Below the pieces are notes generated by a model. The model did no database searches. It saw nothing but the letters and a program-made list of their open reading frames with translations, and was not told the DNA's origin. A program made the translations under genes and the position numbers. Shown here piece after piece: positions 7,987 through 19,393 of a stretch of DNA of 23,276 bases. This stretch comes from a virus: positions 1 to 23,276 of the IMG/VR virus record IMGVR_UViG_3300046790_000018; one strand, 5' to 3'. Every line of letters begins with the position of its first letter. The stretch's first letter is position 1.

Positions 7987-8448
7987 CTATTCGATGGTGC
8001 GCTTGCCTGTCTTGGGATTGGCGCGGGGCACGTCCGCGACGTGCTCTGCCGTGGCGTCCTCGACCTCGGCCTTTTCCGTCAGCGCCTTCTCGGACATCCG
8101 ACGATCCGCGAAGTTCTGCGCGGCAGCGGCGCGGGCCATCTCGCGGTCACGGTCCTTCTGTTTCTTGATCGCCTCGTGCTGGTCCGCGTCGTAGCCGTCA
8201 CGTTCGGCCGCGCTCCGCTCCGCATCGCTGTGGACGGTGCGCGTGGAGCCGTGCAGGATTTCGATCTTGCCGGGACGGCCGTCCGGGTGCCCGGCCAGGA
8301 ACATGTCGCGCGGATACTCGACGTAGACGAAGGGACGGCCCGGCGCGCCGTACATCGTGTAGGTCGATTCCCACTTGCGCATCTCTGCGGCGTAGGCCGA
8401 CGCGGGATTGATCTGAATCGCGGGGCCGTCGTAGTGCTGTTCTGCCAT
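7987..8448 (-). CDS. Small conserved virion-module protein (153 aa)
   Basis: The first gene after the strong terminator at 8459-8514, with GAGGA before its ATG at 8448. The N-terminal half includes FVYVEYPRDMFLAGHPDG and STRTVHSDAERSAAERDGYD, shared with the shorter neighbour downstream. The C-terminal half is a highly charged helix (HEAIKKQKDRDREMARAAAA), probably coiled coil. No enzymatic motif is visible. Its place between the coat-adjacent gene and the gp4-like gene suggests a head-completion, decoration or chaperone-like role, which is inference. Confidence 0.72.
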   Translation of the reverse strand: MAEQHYDGPAIQINPASAYAAEMRKWESTYTMYGAPGRPFVYVEYPRDMFLAGHPDGRPGKIEILHGSTRTVHSDAERSAAERDGYDADQHEAIKKQKDRDREMARAAAAQNFADRRMSEKALTEKAEVEDATAEHVADVPRANPKTGKRTIE

Positions 8449-8458
8449 GCCGTCCTCG

Positions 8459-8514
8459 AAAAAAGCGCCGCAGACCGGGGCGCCCTACGTTCACTCGCCC
8501 TTCGGTCTGCGGCG
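8459..8514 (-). terminator. Intrinsic terminator between coat and neck/tail genes
   Basis: A perfect 12-bp inverted repeat, CGCCGCAGACCG (8466-8477) and its complement (8503-8514), encloses a second 5-bp stem, GGGCG (8478-8482) with CGCCC (8496-8500). On the minus strand the hairpin is followed by one C and six T residues (complement of 8459-8464). It lies 10 nt after the stop of the coat-adjacent gene and 11 nt before the start of the 153-aa gene. It would cut or attenuate late transcription after the capsid genes. Confidence 0.88.
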
Positions 8515-8524
8515 GTTGAAAAAC

Positions 8525-9169
8525 CTAGCTGAACGTGACGCCGTTGTTGGACATCACGTTCCACAAGCCCCCGGCTGCGACCACCGTGAAGCTCGCGCCC
8601 GTGAATGCACCAAACGTCGCTGTGCTCGCGGGCGAGCCCGTGACGCCCGTGCCGAACCCGCCGCCCGCCGACGTGACGACATGCGCCACGCCCGCCGCCG
8701 ACGTGAACGTCAGCGCCAACCCGTTCTGTGCAAACGTCGGCTTCGCCAGCGAGATTGCCGCCGGTGTCAGCTTGTGCAGCAGGAACGCGGTGTTCTGCCC
8801 GATGGCCGCAACCATCTCCGACGTGAGCGCCAGATCCCCGCCGATGGTGCGCGTGGTCGGTGCCCCGAGTGTCGGGAACGTGCTCGCGCCCGGCGCCAGT
8901 GCGACCTGATCGTACGGCGAGCCGGAGAACACGATGCTGGACGCGATGTCGTGCGCGACAGCGGTCGTGCCCTGGTCGCCCCGGCGCTTGACCCGCACCA
9001 CTTTGGGCGCGGGCTGACCGTCGATCAGCATCCACTCGCCGTCGATACGTGCGCGCCAGTTCTGGAGGCCAGAGACGCCCACGGGCGGAAGCCCGGTGGC
9101 ATCTACGACCGTGAGTTCAATGGCGTCCTTGGAGAACGCCGCCGCGAGTGTCTGTGAAAGCCATGCCAT
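8525..9169 (-). CDS. Coat-adjacent structural protein (214 aa)
   Basis: The ATG at 9169 is preceded by AAGGGG with 7-nt spacing. The N-terminal part contains GLPPVGVSGLQNWRARIDGE and a VKRRGDQGTTAVAHD segment, typical of small phage structural proteins encoded next to the coat gene. The rest is Ala/Gly/Thr/Val-rich and probably beta-structured (GVAHVVTSAGGGFGTG), ending in LWNVMSNNGVTFS. No named family is assigned with certainty. A decoration, head-fibre or neck role is plausible from position, directly between the coat gene and the terminator. Confidence 0.72.
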   Translation of the reverse strand: MAWLSQTLAAAFSKDAIELTVVDATGLPPVGVSGLQNWRARIDGEWMLIDGQPAPKVVRVKRRGDQGTTAVAHDIASSIVFSGSPYDQVALAPGASTFPTLGAPTTRTIGGDLALTSEMVAAIGQNTAFLLHKLTPAAISLAKPTFAQNGLALTFTSAAGVAHVVTSAGGGFGTGVTGSPASTATFGAFTGASFTVVAAGGLWNVMSNNGVTFS

Positions 9170-9259: not shown

Positions 9260-10498
9260 CTACCGCAGCAACCGCACCGCGAAGTACGGCTCGATAGCCG
9301 CCACACCAATCAGAATGTCCACCCTGGAGGGCTTCTGGTCGGTCTGGATGTTCCACTGTTCCGCCCACCGCAGGGACGCCTTGATGTCCTTGTTGGTGAC
9401 GACCTTCGACCGCGCGCCGGGCAGATCCGAAGTCAACGGAGCGGACACGAACGCGAATGCCGCCGGGTTGAACAAGAACTGCTGCCGCGAGGCCGTCGTC
9501 GCCATCGTCCACGGCGGAGTCGTCGGCGCAGCCGTAGGGACCGCACCGACAAAGACAATCGCCGCGCCGTTCGACGGCGATCCCGTCACCGTCTGCAACT
9601 GACCGCTGGGGATGATCGCCGGGCTGATCGGCAATGCCGCCGTGCCGGTGCCCGCGATGTCCGCCGTGAGGACGAACCGCTGCGGCTGGCCGGTCGAGGT
9701 GTACGAGAGCGGGTTGACGCCCTGGAGGGACGTGCCAAGCACGTAGAACGCATCGCCCTTCTTCAGCGAGTACGCGCCCATGCCGGAGATGTTGAGCACC
9801 GATCCGGTCTGGTTCGCACCCGAGACGATGGGGGTTGATGCCGCGAAGTTGCCGGAATTGTGAATCGGCAGCACGGCGTCGTAGTACCACTCGTCCACGC
9901 CCAAGGCCATCGCGGAGAACTGGCCGGTGCGGAAGTATTCCTGGTACTGCTTGCCGAACAACGCGAAGTTCGCGTTGAGCAGTTCGCTCTGCATCAACGG
10001 GTCAATGACCGCGACGTAGCCTTCCGGCGTGCCCGTCATCTGGAGCAGCGCAACCGCGTCCGTCCAGTCCTTGTTGACCAGCGGCGTGCCGGGCGTGCCG
10101 ACCACGTTGTAAATCGACTGGTAGACCTCGGCGCCCGCAACGGCGTCGGTCTTGTTCGCCAGCGCGACACCGGCAGGCATCGTGTAGCGGTCCTGCACTT
10201 CTTCGATCTGGAGGGTGTCCTCGATGCTGCTCCAGCCCATGCCGACGTTGTACTGATGGTTCAGCGTCAGCGGGACGGTCTGGTTGAGGATGGACTGCTG
10301 GATGAGTGCCTGCCCCTCGGTGACGGTCCAGCGTTGCGGCGTGCGGACCTGGACGGTGTCCCCGATTTGCGAGCCTTTCGGCTTGTTATTCCACTCTTTG
10401 TTCCACTGCCGGTCGAAGTTCCCAACGAGCTTGAGACTGTTGTCCCAGAACAACGCGGTGTCTTTGGTGACCCACGTCGGGGTGATGACGTAATTCAT
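9260..10498 (-). CDS. Major capsid (coat) protein, P22 gp5-like
   Basis: A 412-residue protein, near the 430 residues of P22 coat. Recognisable coat features are GSQIGDTVQVRTPQRWTVTE, then LTLNHQYNVGMGWSSIEDTL, then AGVALANKTDAVAGAEVYQS. The middle has FALFGKQYQEYFRTGQFSAM and GVDEWYYDAVLPIHN, like the P22-family segment where a peptide leads to the inserted I-domain. An Ala/Gly/Thr-rich beta region around 235-330 may be that insertion domain. It lies between scaffold and head-completion genes, the order expected for P22-type phages. The ATG is at 10498; the upstream Shine-Dalgarno is weak (GTGAGCGG). Confidence 0.9.
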   Translation of the reverse strand: MNYVITPTWVTKDTALFWDNSLKLVGNFDRQWNKEWNNKPKGSQIGDTVQVRTPQRWTVTEGQALIQQSILNQTVPLTLNHQYNVGMGWSSIEDTLQIEEVQDRYTMPAGVALANKTDAVAGAEVYQSIYNVVGTPGTPLVNKDWTDAVALLQMTGTPEGYVAVIDPLMQSELLNANFALFGKQYQEYFRTGQFSAMALGVDEWYYDAVLPIHNSGNFAASTPIVSGANQTGSVLNISGMGAYSLKKGDAFYVLGTSLQGVNPLSYTSTGQPQRFVLTADIAGTGTAALPISPAIIPSGQLQTVTGSPSNGAAIVFVGAVPTAAPTTPPWTMATTASRQQFLFNPAAFAFVSAPLTSDLPGARSKVVTNKDIKASLRWAEQWNIQTDQKPSRVDILIGVAAIEPYFAVRLLR

Positions 10499-10535
10499 TG
10501 GCCGCTCACAATGGCAGCAGCCAACGGGCCGCAGG

Positions 10536-11618
10536 CTAGCGATCTCGTCGCAAGCGTGAGCGGCGCGGCTGGTGGAACGCTGCCGCGTGATCGGCTAACG
10601 ACGCATCGTCACCGGGCAGTTCCCGTGGCGGTGCCTCTGGCGCGGTCCGCACCGGATTCGGCGGACGGGGCGCTGGTCTTGGAGCAGGGGCAGTGGCCGA
10701 TCCGGTGGTTGCGGCCGAAAGCCCCAAAGACTGTAAGCGGCGTTGCACAATCGCAACGAGGTCGGGTGTTGCGGGCCTATCGTAAGTCGCAAGCGTCAAT
10801 TCTTCAAGCAGTCCCGGCGTCTTGAGCATCGCCAACGTGACAGCGGCGCTCTGATCGCCCATGCGGACGACCGCCTGGAGGATAGCGGGCGTGATCGGCC
10901 GGTTGTCGTTCGCGAACTGTTCGACCAAGCCCTTGTTGGCCGGATCGGCAGCAATCGCGGACATGCGCGCCCAGTGCGCCTGCGTCATCGCGTGCAGTTC
11001 GCCGTCATGGCGCTCGCTCACCTTCTGCGACTGCTCCTTGTGCCACTCCACCGCCCGGCGATGGTTCTCCTCGATGTGGGTGAACCGCGCCATCGCCTTC
11101 GTGTAGTCGCGGAGCGGATCGGGCGAGTCCTTGAACTGGTCGAAGGTCGGCTCCTGGAGCGTGAACGGCGGCGGCGGCGGCGGAAGGCCCGGCCGACGTG
11201 TCGGCGGCGCGGGCGGCGCGGGCGCGGGCGGCGGCTCCAGCACCGGTGCGGCCTGCCCGTTGGAGGTGGCGGGCCTGCCACCGGACTTCAGCGAGTCGCG
11301 TTCCCGTTCGGTTTCGCGGAGCCTGCGGGTCAATTCCTGGATGCGCGGGACATCCTCGGCGCTGGCCTGCTGGCTCGCGGCCCGGCGCCGGAACCCGTTT
11401 TTCTCGAACCGGCCATCGGCGCGGCGCGGCGGCTCGTTGCCTTCGTGCGCCTCTTCCGGCTCGGAGACAAGCGCCTGCCCGGTCGCGTCGAGCCCATTGG
11501 TGCCGGTGGGCTCCGGCTTTTCGGTGTTCTGGCCCTGCGGTTCGACGGTGGGCTGGTCGGGCGATTCGGTCCAGCCGCCTGCGTCGGCGGTGGTGGTGGG
11601 ATGGTCAGCTAGTGCCAC
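10536..11618 (-). CDS. Capsid scaffolding protein
   Basis: A 360-residue hydrophilic protein immediately upstream of the coat gene, the standard position for a scaffold. It starts with GTG at 11618 with GGAG 7 nt upstream. The first 110 residues are acidic and disordered-looking and Gln/Glu/Pro-rich. A helical segment, DVPRIQELTRRLRETERERD, looks like coiled coil. A Pro-rich stretch (about 125-150) leads into helices (EQFANDNRPITPAILQAVVR). The C-terminus is a Pro-rich linker ending in the strongly basic QPRRSRLRRDR. A basic C-terminus is how P22 gp8 binds coat protein. Assignment rests on position, composition and tail, not a catalytic motif. Confidence 0.8.
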   Translation of the reverse strand: MALADHPTTTADAGGWTESPDQPTVEPQGQNTEKPEPTGTNGLDATGQALVSEPEEAHEGNEPPRRADGRFEKNGFRRRAASQQASAEDVPRIQELTRRLRETERERDSLKSGGRPATSNGQAAPVLEPPPAPAPPAPPTRRPGLPPPPPPFTLQEPTFDQFKDSPDPLRDYTKAMARFTHIEENHRRAVEWHKEQSQKVSERHDGELHAMTQAHWARMSAIAADPANKGLVEQFANDNRPITPAILQAVVRMGDQSAAVTLAMLKTPGLLEELTLATYDRPATPDLVAIVQRRLQSLGLSAATTGSATAPAPRPAPRPPNPVRTAPEAPPRELPGDDASLADHAAAFHQPRRSRLRRDR

Positions 11619-11676
11619 TTACGCGCTCCAACGTCGCTGTCGCGACGAAATAGACGAAAGAAACGAAAAAAAGAGA

Positions 11677-11714
11677 GTGCGATTCGCAGTGCGATTAGTG
11701 CGATTAGTGCGATT
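11677..11714 (+). repeat. Four direct copies of GTGCGATT
   Basis: Exact copies of GTGCGATT lie at 11677-11684, 11689-11696, 11698-11705 and 11707-11714, with start-to-start spacing of 12, 9 and 9 bp. The short regular spacing is like protein-binding iterons. Confidence 0.9.
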
Positions 11715-11750
11715 CCAAGCGAAGGAACGGCGAACAAAAAGCGCAACAAA

Positions 11751-11780
11751 AAGTGTTACGAAGTGTCACGAAGTGTCACG
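11751..11780 (+). repeat. Three 10-bp tandem repeats (AAGTGTCACG)
   Basis: AAGTGTTACG (11751-11760) is followed by two exact AAGTGTCACG copies (11761-11770, 11771-11780). The period is about one helical turn. The same heptamer in inverted form (GACACTT) begins both copies of the 21-bp unit that follows. Confidence 0.92.
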
Positions 11781-11789
11781 TTCTGCAAC

Positions 11790-11831
11790 GACACTTTTCG
11801 TCGAAAACTCGACACTTTTCGTCGAAAACTC
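11790..11831 (+). repeat. Two perfect 21-bp tandem repeats
   Basis: The segments 11790-11810 and 11811-11831 are identical. Each begins GACACTTTTCGTCG and ends AAAACTC. Each contains an internal inverted repeat TTTTCG-T-CGAAAA, and a partial third copy (GACA) follows. A 21-bp period is two helical turns, as in iteron arrays. Confidence 0.93.
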
Positions 11832-11871
11832 GACAAACTACTAATAAAACCCGACAAAGCCCTACCAAGCC

Positions 11872-11958
11872 CTACTGCCGCCGAAAAATCCAATCCGCCG
11901 CGACCCAGATGAGCGCCAAGGCGATGACGGCAATGCCGATAGAGGTCCAGACGCTCAT
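11872..11958 (-). CDS. Tiny single-span membrane protein (28 aa)
   Basis: The ATG at 11958 lies 1 nt after the stop of the 64-aa membrane gene (stop at 11960-11962). The frame encodes MSVWTSIGIAVIALAL then IWVAADWIFRRQ, then TAG. It is one hydrophobic segment of about 19 residues followed by a positively charged end. It is the last of the six tightly packed small genes between portal and scaffold. Very short length lowers certainty, but the spacing and clean membrane-segment profile support it. It could be a holin-like or accessory membrane peptide. Confidence 0.5.
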   Translation of the reverse strand: MSVWTSIGIAVIALALIWVAADWIFRRQ

Positions 11959-11959
11959 G

Positions 11960-12154
11960 TCAGGGAAACGCCTCATTCATGCCGCCAAAGGCCACCGCGC
12001 CCGCCAGGAGCACGGCGACTCCGACGAGCGCACAGACGAGATTGACCCAATCCAGCCACCCGGCGGGCGCCTCGTCTGGCGAGGTGACGTTGGCCCAGAG
12101 CAGCCACGCGCAGAGCGCCCCAAGGACCGCCAGCGCCAGAAGTTCGGGCATCAT
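11960..12154 (-). CDS. Small two-span membrane protein (64 aa)
   Basis: It starts at an ATG overlapping the preceding stop (ATGATG at 12154-12149; the second ATG at 12151 is equally possible). It has two hydrophobic segments: LLALAVLGALCAWLLWANV and VNLVCALVGVAVLLAGAVAF. Between them is a short acidic/Pro loop (TSPDEAPAGWLDW). Size and topology resemble class II holins, but such small membrane proteins are also common without a lysis role and no endolysin gene is adjacent. Membrane location is supported; function is not. Confidence 0.65.
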   Translation of the reverse strand: MMPELLALAVLGALCAWLLWANVTSPDEAPAGWLDWVNLVCALVGVAVLLAGAVAFGGMNEAFP

Positions 12155-12360
12155 TGCCGCCGCGCGCCAGCCTCCCATGCGTCATAGACCCGGTCATATT
12201 CAGGTCCAGGGGCTTGCCCGTCCTTCGCGTAGACGCGAATGAACGTCCACAGCGCGATCCGGTGCGGCAGTCGCCATGCGACCCACATCGGAAAGCCCTC
12301 TCTCCTGAACCAGTGCCACCAGTCCCTTGGTCCCCAGCCACGCGTCCAGAGTCGCCACAT
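12151..12360 (-). CDS. Trp-rich basic small protein (69 aa)
   Basis: The ATG at 12360 lies 4 nt after the stop of the 58-aa gene; a GTG directly before it at 12363 could also serve. The N-terminal half is extremely rich in Trp and Arg (MWRLWTRGWGPRDWWHWFRR). It continues WVAWRLPHRIALWTFIRVYA and ends in an acidic, Tyr-containing stretch. The WxLPxRxxxWxxIRVxA segment resembles small conserved phage proteins of unknown function. The amphipathic Trp/Arg pattern suggests membrane-interface association, which is inference. Confidence 0.65.
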   Translation of the reverse strand: MWRLWTRGWGPRDWWHWFRREGFPMWVAWRLPHRIALWTFIRVYAKDGQAPGPEYDRVYDAWEAGARRQ

Positions 12361-12364
12361 CACG

Positions 12365-12541
12365 TCACCGCAACACGTTGGGTAACGGGAAAAACCGCGT
12401 CAATAGATAGACGAGCAGGACAATCAGCGCGACGGTCTGAATCACCCGTGCCCAGTACGGCGGCATCGGGATCAGCGCCGTGATCAGGTAGATCACGAAG
12501 CCCACCACCGCCAAGCCGATCAGGAGCAGTAACAGGTCCAT
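12365..12541 (-). CDS. Small two-span membrane protein (58 aa)
   Basis: A frame from the ATG at 12541 encodes LLLLIGLAVVGFVIYLITAL, a short IPMPPYWAR turn, then VIQTVALIVLLVYLLTRFF, ending PLPNVLR and TGA at 12365-12367. The pattern (long hydrophobic helix, IPM turn, second helix) resembles a family of small bacterial and phage inner-membrane proteins. It starts 9 nt after the stop of the upstream CPGC-motif protein. It is a holin candidate by size and topology only. Confidence 0.65.
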   Translation of the reverse strand: MDLLLLLIGLAVVGFVIYLITALIPMPPYWARVIQTVALIVLLVYLLTRFFPLPNVLR

Positions 12542-12550
12542 CGCGCCTCC

Positions 12551-12787
12551 TCAGTGAATCCCCGCCGCCGGGGGCATATTCCGAATGACTTCGCGTTCCA
12601 CGGCTTCCCGTGGCGCGAAGGCCAAACAGGGCACCGATCCCCGCTCGTCCCCGTCGTGCAGGAACGCCAGCAAGAGCCCGCCACTCTCATCGACCCGCGC
12701 CAGCACATGTGACACCTGCCGCTGGCACCCTGGGCACGGCCCGGCTGCTTTCACCCGGTAGCGTTCCAGATCGGCGGGCAGTTCCAT
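12551..12787 (-). CDS. Small Cys-motif protein (78 aa)
   Basis: The ATG at 12787 overlaps the TAA of the upstream gene by one base (TAATG). The protein begins MELPADLERYRVKAAG, followed by CPGC and RQVSHVLARVDE. A hydrophobic strand, GLLLAFLHDGDERG, precedes VPCLAFAPREAVEREV. The CPGC pair plus a downstream Cys suggests a partial zinc-ribbon or redox fold. It is one of six tiny genes in this block. Function unknown. Confidence 0.6.
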   Translation of the reverse strand: MELPADLERYRVKAAGPCPGCQRQVSHVLARVDESGGLLLAFLHDGDERGSVPCLAFAPREAVEREVIRNMPPAAGIH

Positions 12788-12990
12788 TACCCGACCGGAT
12801 GCCTCCGGTTCCAGTGCGCCAACATGCCCTCCTGTAAGTGGTCCAACGAGAGCGCCGTCACCGGATGCAGGCAGATCGGACAGATTTGGAGCAACGGCGC
12901 TCGCGACGGCCGATGCGGCGTCGAAGGCGTCATCGTCGGCGGCGTAATCAGCCGGATCGGCTCGTCGGCGTCGTCCAAGTAGTCCCTCAC
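12787..12990 (-). CDS. Small zinc-finger-like protein (67 aa)
   Basis: It starts with GTG at 12990, overlapping the portal stop (GTGA), with a strong GGAGGA 6 nt upstream, which decides this non-ATG start. The N-terminus is acidic (RDYLDDADEPIRLITPP). The C-terminal half has CPIC, then HPVTALSLDHLQEGMLAHWN and a final RRHP. This gives a C-x2-C ... H-x5-H arrangement compatible with one zinc site. A DNA- or protein-binding adaptor is possible. It is the first of the tiny genes after the portal. Confidence 0.65.
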   Translation of the reverse strand: MRDYLDDADEPIRLITPPTMTPSTPHRPSRAPLLQICPICLHPVTALSLDHLQEGMLAHWNRRHPVG

Positions 12991-15611
12991 GCCGGTTCCT
13001 CCGGCGCCTGCGCGGCTGCGGCCTGATCCGCCGCCTGCTGCTGTGCCGCCTGTTCGGCCTGCGCCGCTTGCGCCTGCGCGGCTTGTTCGGCTTCCGCCTG
13101 TTCGGCTTGTGTCTGGGACGCCTGCGCGGCTTGCTGGTCGGAGAACTGCGCCTCGCGCGCGTGGCCCGCTTGCTGCGCGGTCTGGGCCGCAACCCGATCC
13201 GCCTGGATTTGCGCCTGATCGGCGGCGGCGGCGGCATCGGCGCTCCCCATCGCCATCTCGTGCGCCTGGGTGTCCTCGCGGTCGAGGTTCGCCTGGGCCA
13301 TCTTGAGCTTTTGGAGTTCGATTTGGAGTTGCGCCTGCACCTGCGCCTTGGCGACCTCGGCCTGGGCGCGCACGGCTTCGGTCTGGAGCGCCACCTGCCC
13401 GTCAAACTGCGTCCGCGCGTTCTCCGCCGACTGCTTGATTTCGTCGGTCTGGAGCTTCTTGGTCACCGCCTCCAGTTGCTTCGACAGCGCCTCGATCATC
13501 TTCTTGGCCTGATCCATTTGCTGCTGCACCTGCGGCGGCACCGGATCGCGGCCCTCTTTCTTCGCCTTGAGGTATTCCTGGACCGGCGGCGCCAACATCA
13601 GTTGCATCCGTTCGGCCATTTCCTTGTGGCCCGGCCCGTCCATCGACTTAAAGAACAAGTCCCCAATGACTTGCATCAGGTTCGGGTCAGCGGCAATGAC
13701 TTGGCCGACTGACTGATGCTCCTGTTCGCGGCGGGTGTCGTAGGTGCGCGTCACCTTGACCGCGACATTGAAGCGCGCGTGCTCCGTCAGCGTGTATTCC
13801 TGGATTTGGGGAGCCGGGGCGCCGTTGGCCCTGCTCATCGGCGGCATCCCGCTCGGCTGGCCATTCGGGAGGCCATTTGGGCGTCCGTTCATGCCCGGCG
13901 GTCCCGGTGGCGGCATCCCCGGCGGTATCCCCATCGGCATGCCCGGCATCGGCGGCGGTACCGGCACCGGACGGCGCGCCGCCGGGTCCATCGTGAACGG
14001 CTGGCCGATCAACACCGATTTCGCCTCGCCTTCGCCGGTCACAAGGTGCGCCAATCGTCCTGGCTTGCGGCCGTAGACGTGCCAGAGCAATTCGTTGATG
14101 AGCAGCCCTTCGTAGCGCACGCTGCGCGTCAGGTTGTCGAGCAGGCCAGACGTGCTCATGCCCGTTTCGTCGGTCAGGAGCTTGGCGTGCTTCGCGGACG
14201 TGACGTTTTTCTCGCTTTTGCCCAGCGCGCTGTCGTGGGTCGCGGTCGTGTCCTGAATCGCCTCGGCAAACATCTGCAACGCGAACCCGACCGGCTCGAT
14301 AGGCGAGTTGCGCGGCGGCGAGAAGGGTGGCGGCGCCTGGGCACCGGCTGAATCGGTCTGTTTGTAGTGCAGGACCGGCAGGGTGCGGGTCATGGCGGCG
14401 GCGTATTCGTGCTGGAAGCCTTCGTCCTGCCCTTCCGCGAGCATGATGGCGGGAATCGGCGCGAGCGCGACGACCTCGACCATTTTGCTGACCATCGCGT
14501 TGAAGCCCTGCTGTGAGTCCCGTGACGGCCGCACGATCCCGATGACGCGCCGCTCGTTGTCGTAGGGCTGCACTTCCTCGCCCAGCACCTTGATGATCCC
14601 GGTATACGGAATCGGCCACTCCGTCTGCTCCAGGATGTGGACGCCGTCGATGACGCAATGCGTGAACTTGCGCTCTGGAATCGAGCGGGAGTCGGTGGCG
14701 GCGCTGGCGATGTCCTCGTCGGTTTCATCTTCCCAGGCGGTATGGCCGTCTGCGAACTCCAGGAGCGTGCGGTTTTCGTACTCGCAGTAGATGTATTCGG
14801 TGACGTAGACCGCTTTGAGCACTTCGCCGGTCGGCCCACGTTCTGCGCGAAACCACTGCGGATATTGCTGCGTCAGCGACGTGAAATCCGAATCGTTGTC
14901 GTACGTTTTGAAGGGATTGTTGATTTTTTTCCCATTTTCGTTCTCCACCTTCGGATACGTCGCCAAATACCGTTCCCACGGCATCCACGAGCCAATGAAG
15001 CCCCAGTCAGCATCGCTCCCATCCGGCTGCTCATGCGTCGGATCGAGTTTGACCGCGCCCTGGTTGAAGATGCGGGCGACGACAACCTCTTGCTGCATCG
15101 TCTTGCCGGGCATGTAGCGGGTGAGCACGCGGTAGTAGCCGCGCCCGGCGATAGCGCCGCGCTGGAATGCCCAGGAGCGCGCGTCGGCCGCTTCGCTCTG
15201 GCGCTGGATGCGGCGCACGAGCCCTTCGCGCAGTTCGATTTCCTTGTCGGCAATCGGGCCGGTGAGCGACTCGAAGTCGTCGGCGGGCACGATTTCGATG
15301 CCAAGGTCTGACTGGCGCTCCTGGTTCATGACCCGAAGCACCGGCGCTTTGACTTTGTTGATGGTGAGACAGGGGCGGGCGGGCACCGGTGGCAGGCCAC
15401 CTTCGGCATTGCGCCCGGCGCGGAGGCGTTTCACATCCTCGGGCCACTGATCGTCGTTGTAGAACTTGAGATCCTCGATTTCGCGGCGGTCCTGCCCTTC
15501 ATCGAACTCGCAGGCGGTGGTGTAGCGGGTGCGCGCCAGTTCCATGAACGGCGACGAGGATTTGTATTCCCGCGTGAGCGATCCCCGGCGCCCTGGGCGA
15601 CGAATGGCCAT
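12987..15611 (-). CDS. Portal protein, P22-like
   Basis: An 874-residue portal (P22 portal is 725), starting at the ATG at 15611 with AGGA 7 nt upstream. Family features near the N-terminus are DLKFYNDDQWPEDVKRLRAG, then PARPCLTINKVKAPVLRVMN and QSDLGIEIVPADD. In the central region are AFQRGAIAGRGYYRVLTRYM, then DPTHEQPDGSDADWGFIGSW and VRPSRDSQQGFNAMVSKMVE. Residues about 545-603 are an unusual Pro/Met/Gly/Asn-rich insert. The last 170 residues are a Gln/Ala-rich helix that would form the barrel or an extended coiled coil. The portal ring is the DNA entry/exit channel and docks TerL, gp4-like and hub proteins, all encoded nearby. Confidence 0.92.
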   Translation of the reverse strand: MAIRRPGRRGSLTREYKSSSPFMELARTRYTTACEFDEGQDRREIEDLKFYNDDQWPEDVKRLRAGRNAEGGLPPVPARPCLTINKVKAPVLRVMNQERQSDLGIEIVPADDFESLTGPIADKEIELREGLVRRIQRQSEAADARSWAFQRGAIAGRGYYRVLTRYMPGKTMQQEVVVARIFNQGAVKLDPTHEQPDGSDADWGFIGSWMPWERYLATYPKVENENGKKINNPFKTYDNDSDFTSLTQQYPQWFRAERGPTGEVLKAVYVTEYIYCEYENRTLLEFADGHTAWEDETDEDIASAATDSRSIPERKFTHCVIDGVHILEQTEWPIPYTGIIKVLGEEVQPYDNERRVIGIVRPSRDSQQGFNAMVSKMVEVVALAPIPAIMLAEGQDEGFQHEYAAAMTRTLPVLHYKQTDSAGAQAPPPFSPPRNSPIEPVGFALQMFAEAIQDTTATHDSALGKSEKNVTSAKHAKLLTDETGMSTSGLLDNLTRSVRYEGLLINELLWHVYGRKPGRLAHLVTGEGEAKSVLIGQPFTMDPAARRPVPVPPPMPGMPMGIPPGMPPPGPPGMNGRPNGLPNGQPSGMPPMSRANGAPAPQIQEYTLTEHARFNVAVKVTRTYDTRREQEHQSVGQVIAADPNLMQVIGDLFFKSMDGPGHKEMAERMQLMLAPPVQEYLKAKKEGRDPVPPQVQQQMDQAKKMIEALSKQLEAVTKKLQTDEIKQSAENARTQFDGQVALQTEAVRAQAEVAKAQVQAQLQIELQKLKMAQANLDREDTQAHEMAMGSADAAAAADQAQIQADRVAAQTAQQAGHAREAQFSDQQAAQASQTQAEQAEAEQAAQAQAAQAEQAAQQQAADQAAAAQAPEEPA

Positions 15612-18268: not shown

Positions 18269-18328
18269 GCCCCAAGACTCTAACCTAACCCACGCGCCCC
18301 TACCACACTCCTCCACCCACGTCCATAC

Positions 18329-18342
18329 CCTAACCGCTTAGG
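18329..18342. promoter_or_regulatory. Palindromic site S1 (CCTAA-N4-TTAGG)
   Basis: CCTAACCGCTTAGG is a perfect 5-bp inverted repeat with a 4-nt spacer, 61 bp upstream of the TerS ATG. It belongs to a six-member family in this window and could be an operator for the late genes. Confidence 0.65.
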
Positions 18343-18440
18343 CTAAACTGCCATGGCCACGCCGCCGCCGACAGCGGGGTAGAAAGCTAAGAGCTTAGGA
18401 GAAACAGCCACGGACACCACCGCCGCCGCGACAGGGGTAG
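18330..18440. repeat. Imperfect 57-bp tandem duplication containing S1 and S2
   Basis: The segment beginning at 18330 and the one beginning at 18387 align over about 53 bp with roughly ten differences and one small indel. Each begins CTAA-N4-TTAGG, continues AAAC-GCCA, and ends in a CCGCCGCCG...ACAG...GGGGTAG block. Confidence 0.8.
18386..18399. promoter_or_regulatory. Palindromic site S2
   Basis: GCTAAGAGCTTAGG matches the family with one arm mismatch. It occupies the same place in the second 57-bp unit that S1 occupies in the first. Confidence 0.55.
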
Positions 18441-18703
18441 GAGTCCCTGCTGCGCTCGTGCGCTTCGACTTCTGTCTTCGATCCTGTGGCCACGCTGCGT
18501 TTCGCCTCCATACCCTGGCCACCGCGCCCACGTCGAGCCAGCGGGCGAGCGCCAGCGGTCGCAGGGCGGAGCAGGGCGCAGGCGCCAGCGCAGGCGAGCC
18601 CACCGCGCGAAGGTCCAGGACGCAGGGCGCCTTGCCTCGGCAGGTGGCCATCGGTGATTGCCTCCGGCTGTCGGCTCTCGCGTTTCCCCTGCCAGCCTGA
18701 GAA

Positions 18704-18717
18704 CCTAGCCGCTTAGT
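18704..18717. promoter_or_regulatory. Palindromic site S3
   Basis: CCTAGCCGCTTAGT shares the CCGC spacer with S1 and S4. A TTGACA hexamer overlaps its right end (18717-18722), but no good -10 follows on the plus strand. A half-site, TAACCTAA, lies nearby at 18751-18758. Confidence 0.5.
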
Positions 18718-18861
18718 TGACAGTCGGCCGTAAGGCAATGGCATTACGCGTAACCTAAGGGGGCGAAAGTCCAGCCTAGACACCGCGACTATGGACGGCT
18801 GAGCCAGAACGCGAATCTTTACGAAATTTAATCGTGGCTTCGCTTTCGAGGCGAAGGTGGT

Positions 18862-18909
18862 CGTGCCTATCGGGTCGTAGGCACGGCATAGGCACGGATA
18901 GGCACGGCA
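18862..18909. repeat. Iteron-like cluster 1 (TAGGCACGG)
   Basis: Three direct units start at 18878, 18889 and 18899 (TAGGCACGGCA, TAGGCACGGA, TAGGCACGGCA), preceded by an inverted unit CGTGCCTA at 18862-18869. Periods of 11 and 10 bp put the units on one face of the helix. An AT-rich patch lies 25-50 bp to the left. Confidence 0.85.
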
Positions 18910-18944
18910 TGGAAGGCAGGCCCGACGCCCGTGCCTGTCCGGGG

Positions 18945-18969
18945 GGGAAAACCCCTTTAGGGGTTTCCC
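18945..18969. other. Strong hairpin with TTTA loop
   Basis: GGG-AAA-CCCC (18945-18955, with one bulged A at 18948) pairs with GGGGTTTCCC (18960-18969) around loop TTTA. No T run follows on either strand, so a terminator is not the simplest reading. Confidence 0.6.
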
Positions 18970-19180
18970 GGAAAAGGCCGGTCGGAGGGGGGTCTAGGCG
19001 TCGTGTCGGGGTTCGGGGTGTTTCGGCGAGCTCGCGGAACAGAGAGAAGAGGGGACGACCGCGCCAGCCGGTCCCAGGGGCGACGAACGGCGCTCGCGAC
19101 GGGGTTCGGGTCATCGGACGGCCGGATTATGGTTCCTGGGGCAATTCGTGGGTTCCGGGGTTTGGGGGTTCCTGGGGGCG

Positions 19181-19204
19181 GCTGGACGGCTGGACGGCTG
19201 GACG
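19181..19204 (+). repeat. Three 8-bp tandem repeats (GCTGGACG)
   Basis: Exact copies at 19181-19188, 19189-19196 and 19197-19204, in the noncoding region between the two iteron-like clusters. Confidence 0.85.
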
Positions 19205-19243
19205 TGGGAGGGTGTCAGGGCGGGAATTGTCCAGAAAACAGGT

Positions 19244-19265
19244 CGTGCCTATGGCCATAGGCACG
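19244..19265. promoter_or_regulatory. 22-bp perfect palindrome
   Basis: CGTGCCTATGG (19244-19254) is followed directly by its reverse complement (19255-19265). The arms are the TAGGCACG iteron in opposite orientations, so this is two iterons head to head. It is a plausible dimeric protein-binding site. Confidence 0.85.
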
Positions 19266-19345
19266 GCATAGGCACGGATAGGCACGACTAGGCAGGGCAG
19301 GTGCCAGGAGAGCGACTCTCCAAATAGGCACGGCATAGGCACGGC
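19258..19345. repeat. Iteron-like cluster 2 (TAGGCACGG)
   Basis: Units start at 19258, 19269, 19279 (variant TAGGCACGA), 19289 (variant TAGGCAGGG), 19325 and 19336. The first 29 bp (19258-19286) are identical to 18878-18906 in cluster 1. The spacing is 10-11 bp apart from one gap (19299-19324). Confidence 0.87.
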
Positions 19346-19363
19346 CACGGCTAGGTTATTGGG

Positions 19364-19384
19364 AAAAGGGCGCCGGAGCGCCCT
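19364..19384 (-). terminator. Intrinsic terminator of the leftward early operon
   Basis: GGGCGC (19368-19373), loop CGGA, then GCGCCC (19378-19383), extended by one A-T pair. On the minus strand it is followed by four T residues. It lies 10 nt downstream of the stop of the 305-aa gene. Confidence 0.75.
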
Positions 19385-19393
19385 ATGGCAGAG

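Follow-up and report, generated by a model that had tools for sequence, protein, structure and literature searches.

A repeat-packed gap 5′ of the scaffold and coat genes of an uncultured P22-like phage is probably a sublineage-specific control leader

A non-coding, AT-rich gap packed with tandem repeats, located immediately 5′ of the scaffold gene in an uncultured phage, is probably a cis-regulatory leader (promoter, operator and 5′ UTR) of the unit formed by the scaffold gene, the coat gene and a gene for a 214-aa protein, and its repeats appear to be specific to one sublineage. The sequence analysed, hereafter the window, is the 23.3-kb uncultured virus record IMGVR_UViG_3300046790_000018, a fragment of a phage genome. 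The gap thus marks the point at which P22-like soil phages of an uncultured clade are likely to control the expression of their capsid genes.

RESULTS

Composition and repeat content of the gap

The gap (11619–11872, 254 bp) is bounded by the stop of a 28-codon open reading frame (11873) and by the GTG start of the scaffold gene (11618, minus strand). The first-pass annotation had described four families of tandem repeats in an AT-rich stretch between a cluster of tiny genes and the scaffold gene. Direct reading and a tandem-repeat search recovered all four families where it had placed them, inside the gap, and the contrast in composition was borne out, with a GC content of 47% as compared with a background of about 65%; the 200-bp interval with the lowest GC in the whole contig begins at 11651. 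The summed TRF score of the gap was 237, whereas the scores of 1000 dinucleotide shuffles averaged 6 and never exceeded 94, and in none of them were three or more arrays scoring at least 36 obtained. A weak fifth tandem array, GACGAAAGA, lies beside the four families at 11644–11668. The Rfam scan of the region returned no family, and a distant blastn search against annotated phage records gave no match. The elements are listed below in the direction of transcription; G002 is a related contig (IMGVR 3300046791_000163).

11857–11875, minus strand: pair of 10-bp direct repeats that opens the module on its 5′ side, AAGCCCTAC stepped by 10 bp (sense GTAGGGCTTG/GTAGGGCTTT); identical in G002
11846–11855, minus strand: degenerate third palindrome, GTCGGGTTTT, 21 bp upstream of the palindrome pair
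11789–11835, minus strand: 21-bp unit CGACACTTTTCGTCGAAAACT (sense GTCGAGTTTTCGACGAAAAGT), two perfect copies and a partial third (2.2 copies), from the tandem-repeat search
11795–11807 and 11816–11828, minus strand: 13-bp palindrome TTTTCGACGAAAA, one per 21-bp unit (TTTTCGTCGAAAA), candidate operators spaced by two helical turns
11751–11780, minus strand: three 10-bp repeats AAGTGTYACG, with T in place of C in the first copy (sense TGACACTTCG, but TAACACTT for the third copy), from the tandem-repeat search
11742–11760, minus strand: weak terminator-like stem that overlaps the last 10-bp copy and is followed by CTTTTTG; identical in G002
11676–11714, minus strand: four copies of AGTGCGATT at 11676, 11688, 11697 and 11706 (sense AATCGCACT), spaced by 12, 9 and 9 (in the sense direction 9, 9 and 12)
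11648–11675, minus strand: pyrimidine-rich tract, sense CTCTTTTTTTCGTTTCTTTCGTCTATTT, by direct reading
11632–11647, minus strand: inverted repeat CGTCGC-GACA-GCGACG, 2 nt before GGAG, from the comparison of relatives
11626–11629, minus strand: likely Shine–Dalgarno sequence GGAG of the scaffold gene, by direct reading

Within the window, the repeats are confined to this gap. No other occurrence of the 13-bp palindrome was detected in the window or in G002, even when one mismatch was allowed, and the 9-bp repeat AATCGCACT has no further copy in the window. Terminator-like stems are not above chance in the region (three found for 2.2 expected).

A discrete scaffold–coat–214 transcription unit

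The late genes occupy the minus strand in the order small terminase, large terminase, portal, tiny genes, scaffold, coat, 214-aa gene and further structural-type genes. The coat and the P22-type portal were named by Pfam and the large terminase by PHROG, while the other late-gene names derive from position; this applies to the scaffold-position gene, which had no match in Pfam or PHROG. Between portal and scaffold, the same strand encodes tiny predicted membrane proteins, of 28 aa (11873–11959) and 58 aa (12365–12541), the latter conserved in relatives.

10536–11618, minus strand: scaffold-position gene, 360 aa, GTG start, directly 5′ of the coat gene, a position conserved in relatives
9260–10498, minus strand: P22-type coat protein, 412 aa (Pfam P22_CoatProtein, E 9e-14)
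8525–9169, minus strand: 214-aa gene, last in the unit, with homologues in relatives
8460–8513, minus strand: intrinsic terminator 3′ of the 214-aa gene, stem GCCGCAGACCG/CGGTCTGCGGC followed by GCTTTTTT, from the comparison of relatives

In all eight sequences compared, the 214-aa gene is followed by a strong hairpin and a T-rich tail, and the stem sequences are mostly unrelated. Persistence of the hairpin despite replacement of its stem makes a good case for an intrinsic terminator. Accordingly, scaffold, coat and the 214-aa gene look like a discrete unit that needs 5′ control of its own. As a promoter or operator region would, the gap adjoins this unit directly 5′, on the same strand, and ends at the scaffold start.

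The gap in close relatives

Searches with the coat protein yielded 19 loci at first and then 80; no coat relative was confirmed in bacterial genomes. Among close-clade contigs with the scaffold 5′ flank available, two carry the repeats, namely L002, which is nearly identical to the window, and G002 (locus L003), which is about 83% identical to it in the flanking genes. Six relatives that share the gene order (L004, L005, L006, L008, L010 and L012) lack the repeats; two of the six are contigs of 41–43 kb or their near-identical sister. At the position of the gap, L012 and L008 have repeats of their own, GGCGTTT and TTTGCGCGATAAG, respectively.

Alignment of the gap with its G002 counterpart covers 234 bases at 96.6% identity, whereas third codon positions are 66% identical in scaffold (Fisher p 6e-22) and 79% in coat (1.5e-10). 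The G002 gap differs by whole repeat units plus eight substitutions: it lacks exactly one 10-bp unit and one 9-bp unit, the remaining indel(s) being of a single base. The sole substitution in the 21-bp units affects, in both copies, the central base of TTTTCG-N-CGAAAA. Since this base is neutral with respect to symmetry, the TTTTCGNCGAAAA palindrome is kept; it occurs twice at 21-bp spacing in both carriers, which represent only two lineages with exchange between them possible. Another potential operator, GTCGA-N4-TCGAC, is broken in G002, whereas TTTTCG-N-CGAAAA is intact there, and the latter is therefore preferred; a scan for the former found, within the clade, only the near-identical contig, along with eight other matches. 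The 18-mer AATCGCACTAATCGCACT was also discarded as a lead, its two matches in viral contigs beyond the clade (L026 and L027) being likely due to chance.

The high identity to G002 might be read as the mark of purifying selection. This reading is weakened by two patches, 8371–8605 and 10097–10330, which are as identical between the two contigs as the gap is, with 92–100% identity at third positions. Recent exchange between the lineages is thus a real alternative to constraint.

The only element of the gap common to all close relatives with an available 5′ flank is the inverted repeat CGTCGC-N3..6-GCGACG, found in every one of them before the scaffold ribosome-binding site. Its loop varies in length (3–6 nt) and sequence, and most of these genomes have a single copy; in L004 it appears to lie inside the upstream reading frame, and in the window RNA prediction favours a fold that competes with it. 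It is an element of the whole clade, distinct from the repeats, and may act on the translation or stability of the scaffold–coat mRNA.

Promoters and regulators in the window and in distant relatives

No sigma-70-like promoter was detected at 10400–13200 or elsewhere in the scanned late region with a tool whose coverage is confined to this class, and no DNA-binding regulator was recognized among the tested proteins of the window, itself a genome fragment. Among distant relatives, 12 of the 32 non-redundant sequences have TTGACA at most 100 bp from the start of scaffold, as compared with 0.34 expected from its rate in downstream coding DNA. Several relatives present TTGACA-N17-(C/G)ACACT immediately ahead of the scaffold start codon, and three of the 32 have GTCAA-N4-TTGAC palindromes as a tandem pair, of which the second overlaps the –35 box. 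In a scan of the collection, nine loci showed this tandem arrangement 1066–1082 bp before coat, and several of the nine are the same contigs. The presence of these promoters and palindromes indicates that the spot 5′ of scaffold is a control point in the wider family.

In L073, L077, L080 and L081, the predicted start at the TTGACA promoter-like site would leave a very short leader before scaffold. Further clusters of tandem GTCAA-N4-TTGAC palindromes were noticed in L169 (8037–8184, minus strand), about 6.8 kb before the coat relative, and these probably represent operators of this kind serving a different promoter.

The long relative G006 encodes a 206-aa protein (L029:220–840, minus strand) that matches Pfam Sigma70_r4 and PHROG 351 (RNA polymerase sigma factor). 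Judging from its sigma-70 region 4, it is a possible late transcription regulator, which makes a noncanonical late promoter plausible without demonstrating one. Searches in relatives for DNA polymerase A and, without a positive control, for phage-type RNA polymerase gave no match.

DISCUSSION

The first-pass annotation had proposed, as one of two options, a regulator-binding hub governing scaffold and coat. Of the two, this is the one that the data favour: the position of the gap, the conserved downstream terminator and the promoter/operator anatomy of distant relatives all point to it, while the search for a promoter and a regulator in the window came back empty. In the model that we favour, a regulator of phage or host origin would bind the paired TTTTCG-N-CGAAAA palindromes of 13 bp, which are separated by two turns of the helix, and perhaps also the repeats of 9 and 10 bp, and this binding would set the late expression of scaffold and coat from a noncanonical promoter inside 11619–11872. 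The repeats would be gained and lost through tandem duplication of units and be particular to the sublineage of the window. It is tempting to go further and to imagine a compact multi-operator region in which each repeat family has its own factor and which gates the capsid genes in a soil P22-like sublineage, possibly via a phage sigma-type regulator at a noncanonical promoter; this more elaborate scheme is speculative and rather improbable. More generally, a single place would harbour control anatomies that differ by sublineage, with tandem palindromes at a TTGACA promoter in one and repeat families together with an inverted repeat at the ribosome-binding site in another.

The main rival to a control region is a neutral, slippage-prone spacer. 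According to this explanation, which is possible though unlikely, the gap would be non-coding DNA that accumulates slippage duplications and is shared with G002 by recent recombination; of its elements, the inverted repeat and the ribosome-binding site alone would matter. Relatives have unrelated repeats or none at this position, as illustrated by L012 and L008; slippage yields whole-unit changes in copy number such as those separating the two carriers; and the equally identical coding patches point to recent exchange between the lineage of the window and G002. Against this, the tract of high identity stops where scaffold begins, at the start codon, and does not run into the gene. The palindromes of both 21-bp units also survive their shared substitution, a weak argument because concerted evolution of a tandem repeat would give the same result. 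Alternatively, the repeats may act in RNA, as tandem mini-hairpins or as an attenuator, for instance as a feedback target of the scaffold protein. The retention of the inverted repeat by the ribosome-binding site with a loop of variable length, the better-than-shuffled folding of the 21-bp repeat pair alone (z –2.3) and the weak terminator-like stem at 11760–11742 are consistent with such a leader, but the leader as a whole is no more stable than shuffles (z –0.67), and we regard this explanation as very unlikely. The change seen in G002 converts U-A to U-G in a small hairpin and is invisible to the DNA palindrome, so that it favours neither reading.

The other option of the first-pass annotation, a replication origin of the iteron type, unwinding at an AT-rich segment within a late operon, is not supported and now seems very unlikely. 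Its attraction is understandable, since direct-repeat families adjoin an AT-rich stretch with many T-tracts, in which the lowest GC of the contig is found, a layout resembling ori-lambda (PMC7466680). Phage lambda and Stx phage origins, however, consist of four to six copies of one iteron family and an AT-rich tract inside the initiator gene O (PMC7466680). Here, direct repeats likewise adjoin AT-rich DNA, but they belong to four unrelated families of 9–21 bp, with two to four copies each, and they are located in a gap between structural genes. Comparison of the gap among related phages, one of the checks envisaged by that annotation, spoke against an origin, the repeats being absent from the six relatives that share the gene order, a comparison in which the replication genes of the window itself have no part. 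They also have no match anywhere in the long relatives G006 (41.4 kb) and G009 (43.3 kb), the former of which is likely near complete because its first 30 bases recur 139 bases before its end. The search for a replication initiator was equally unrewarding, none being recognized among the tested proteins of the window fragment or the early genes of relatives, whose replication genes encode a primase–helicase, a 5′–3′ exonuclease and a Holliday junction resolvase. As for cumulative GC skew, there is a small maximum near 11.75 kb, but a similar one is seen in G009, a genome free of such repeats, at the boundary of scaffold, so that the skew near 11.75 kb probably follows gene composition. Repeats next to AT-rich DNA are thus insufficient for calling an origin.

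Moreover, the largest skew inversion of the contig lies elsewhere, at 18316–19390, in about 1.07 kb devoid of a convincing gene and 5′ of the small terminase gene. It contains the following elements:

18878–18910, 19256–19299 and 19324–19345: arrays of the 10–11 bp TAGGCACGGCA
19244–19265: inverted repeat CGTGCCTATGG/CCATAGGCACG

At the matching position in G006, G009 and G011 there are also tandem arrays, unrelated in sequence. This second gap is a candidate pac site or origin, and a better fit for these roles than 11619–11872.

To return to the control leader that we favour, its closest counterparts are the tandem palindromes of L073, L077, L080 and L081. As in the window, there are two of them, about 17–21 bp apart, directly 5′ of scaffold and coat. 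Unlike the window, these relatives have another palindrome sequence, recognizable –35 and –10 boxes and no further repeat families, and their site is only 40–70 bp from the start codon. A second parallel is offered by P22, in which the synthesis of scaffolding protein is under autogenous control. The window phage has the same scaffold-then-coat gene pair together with a P22-type coat and portal; in contrast to P22, there is no evidence that the scaffold protein acts on its leader. Although the anatomy of the gap is unusual, the kind of system that it would represent is already known.
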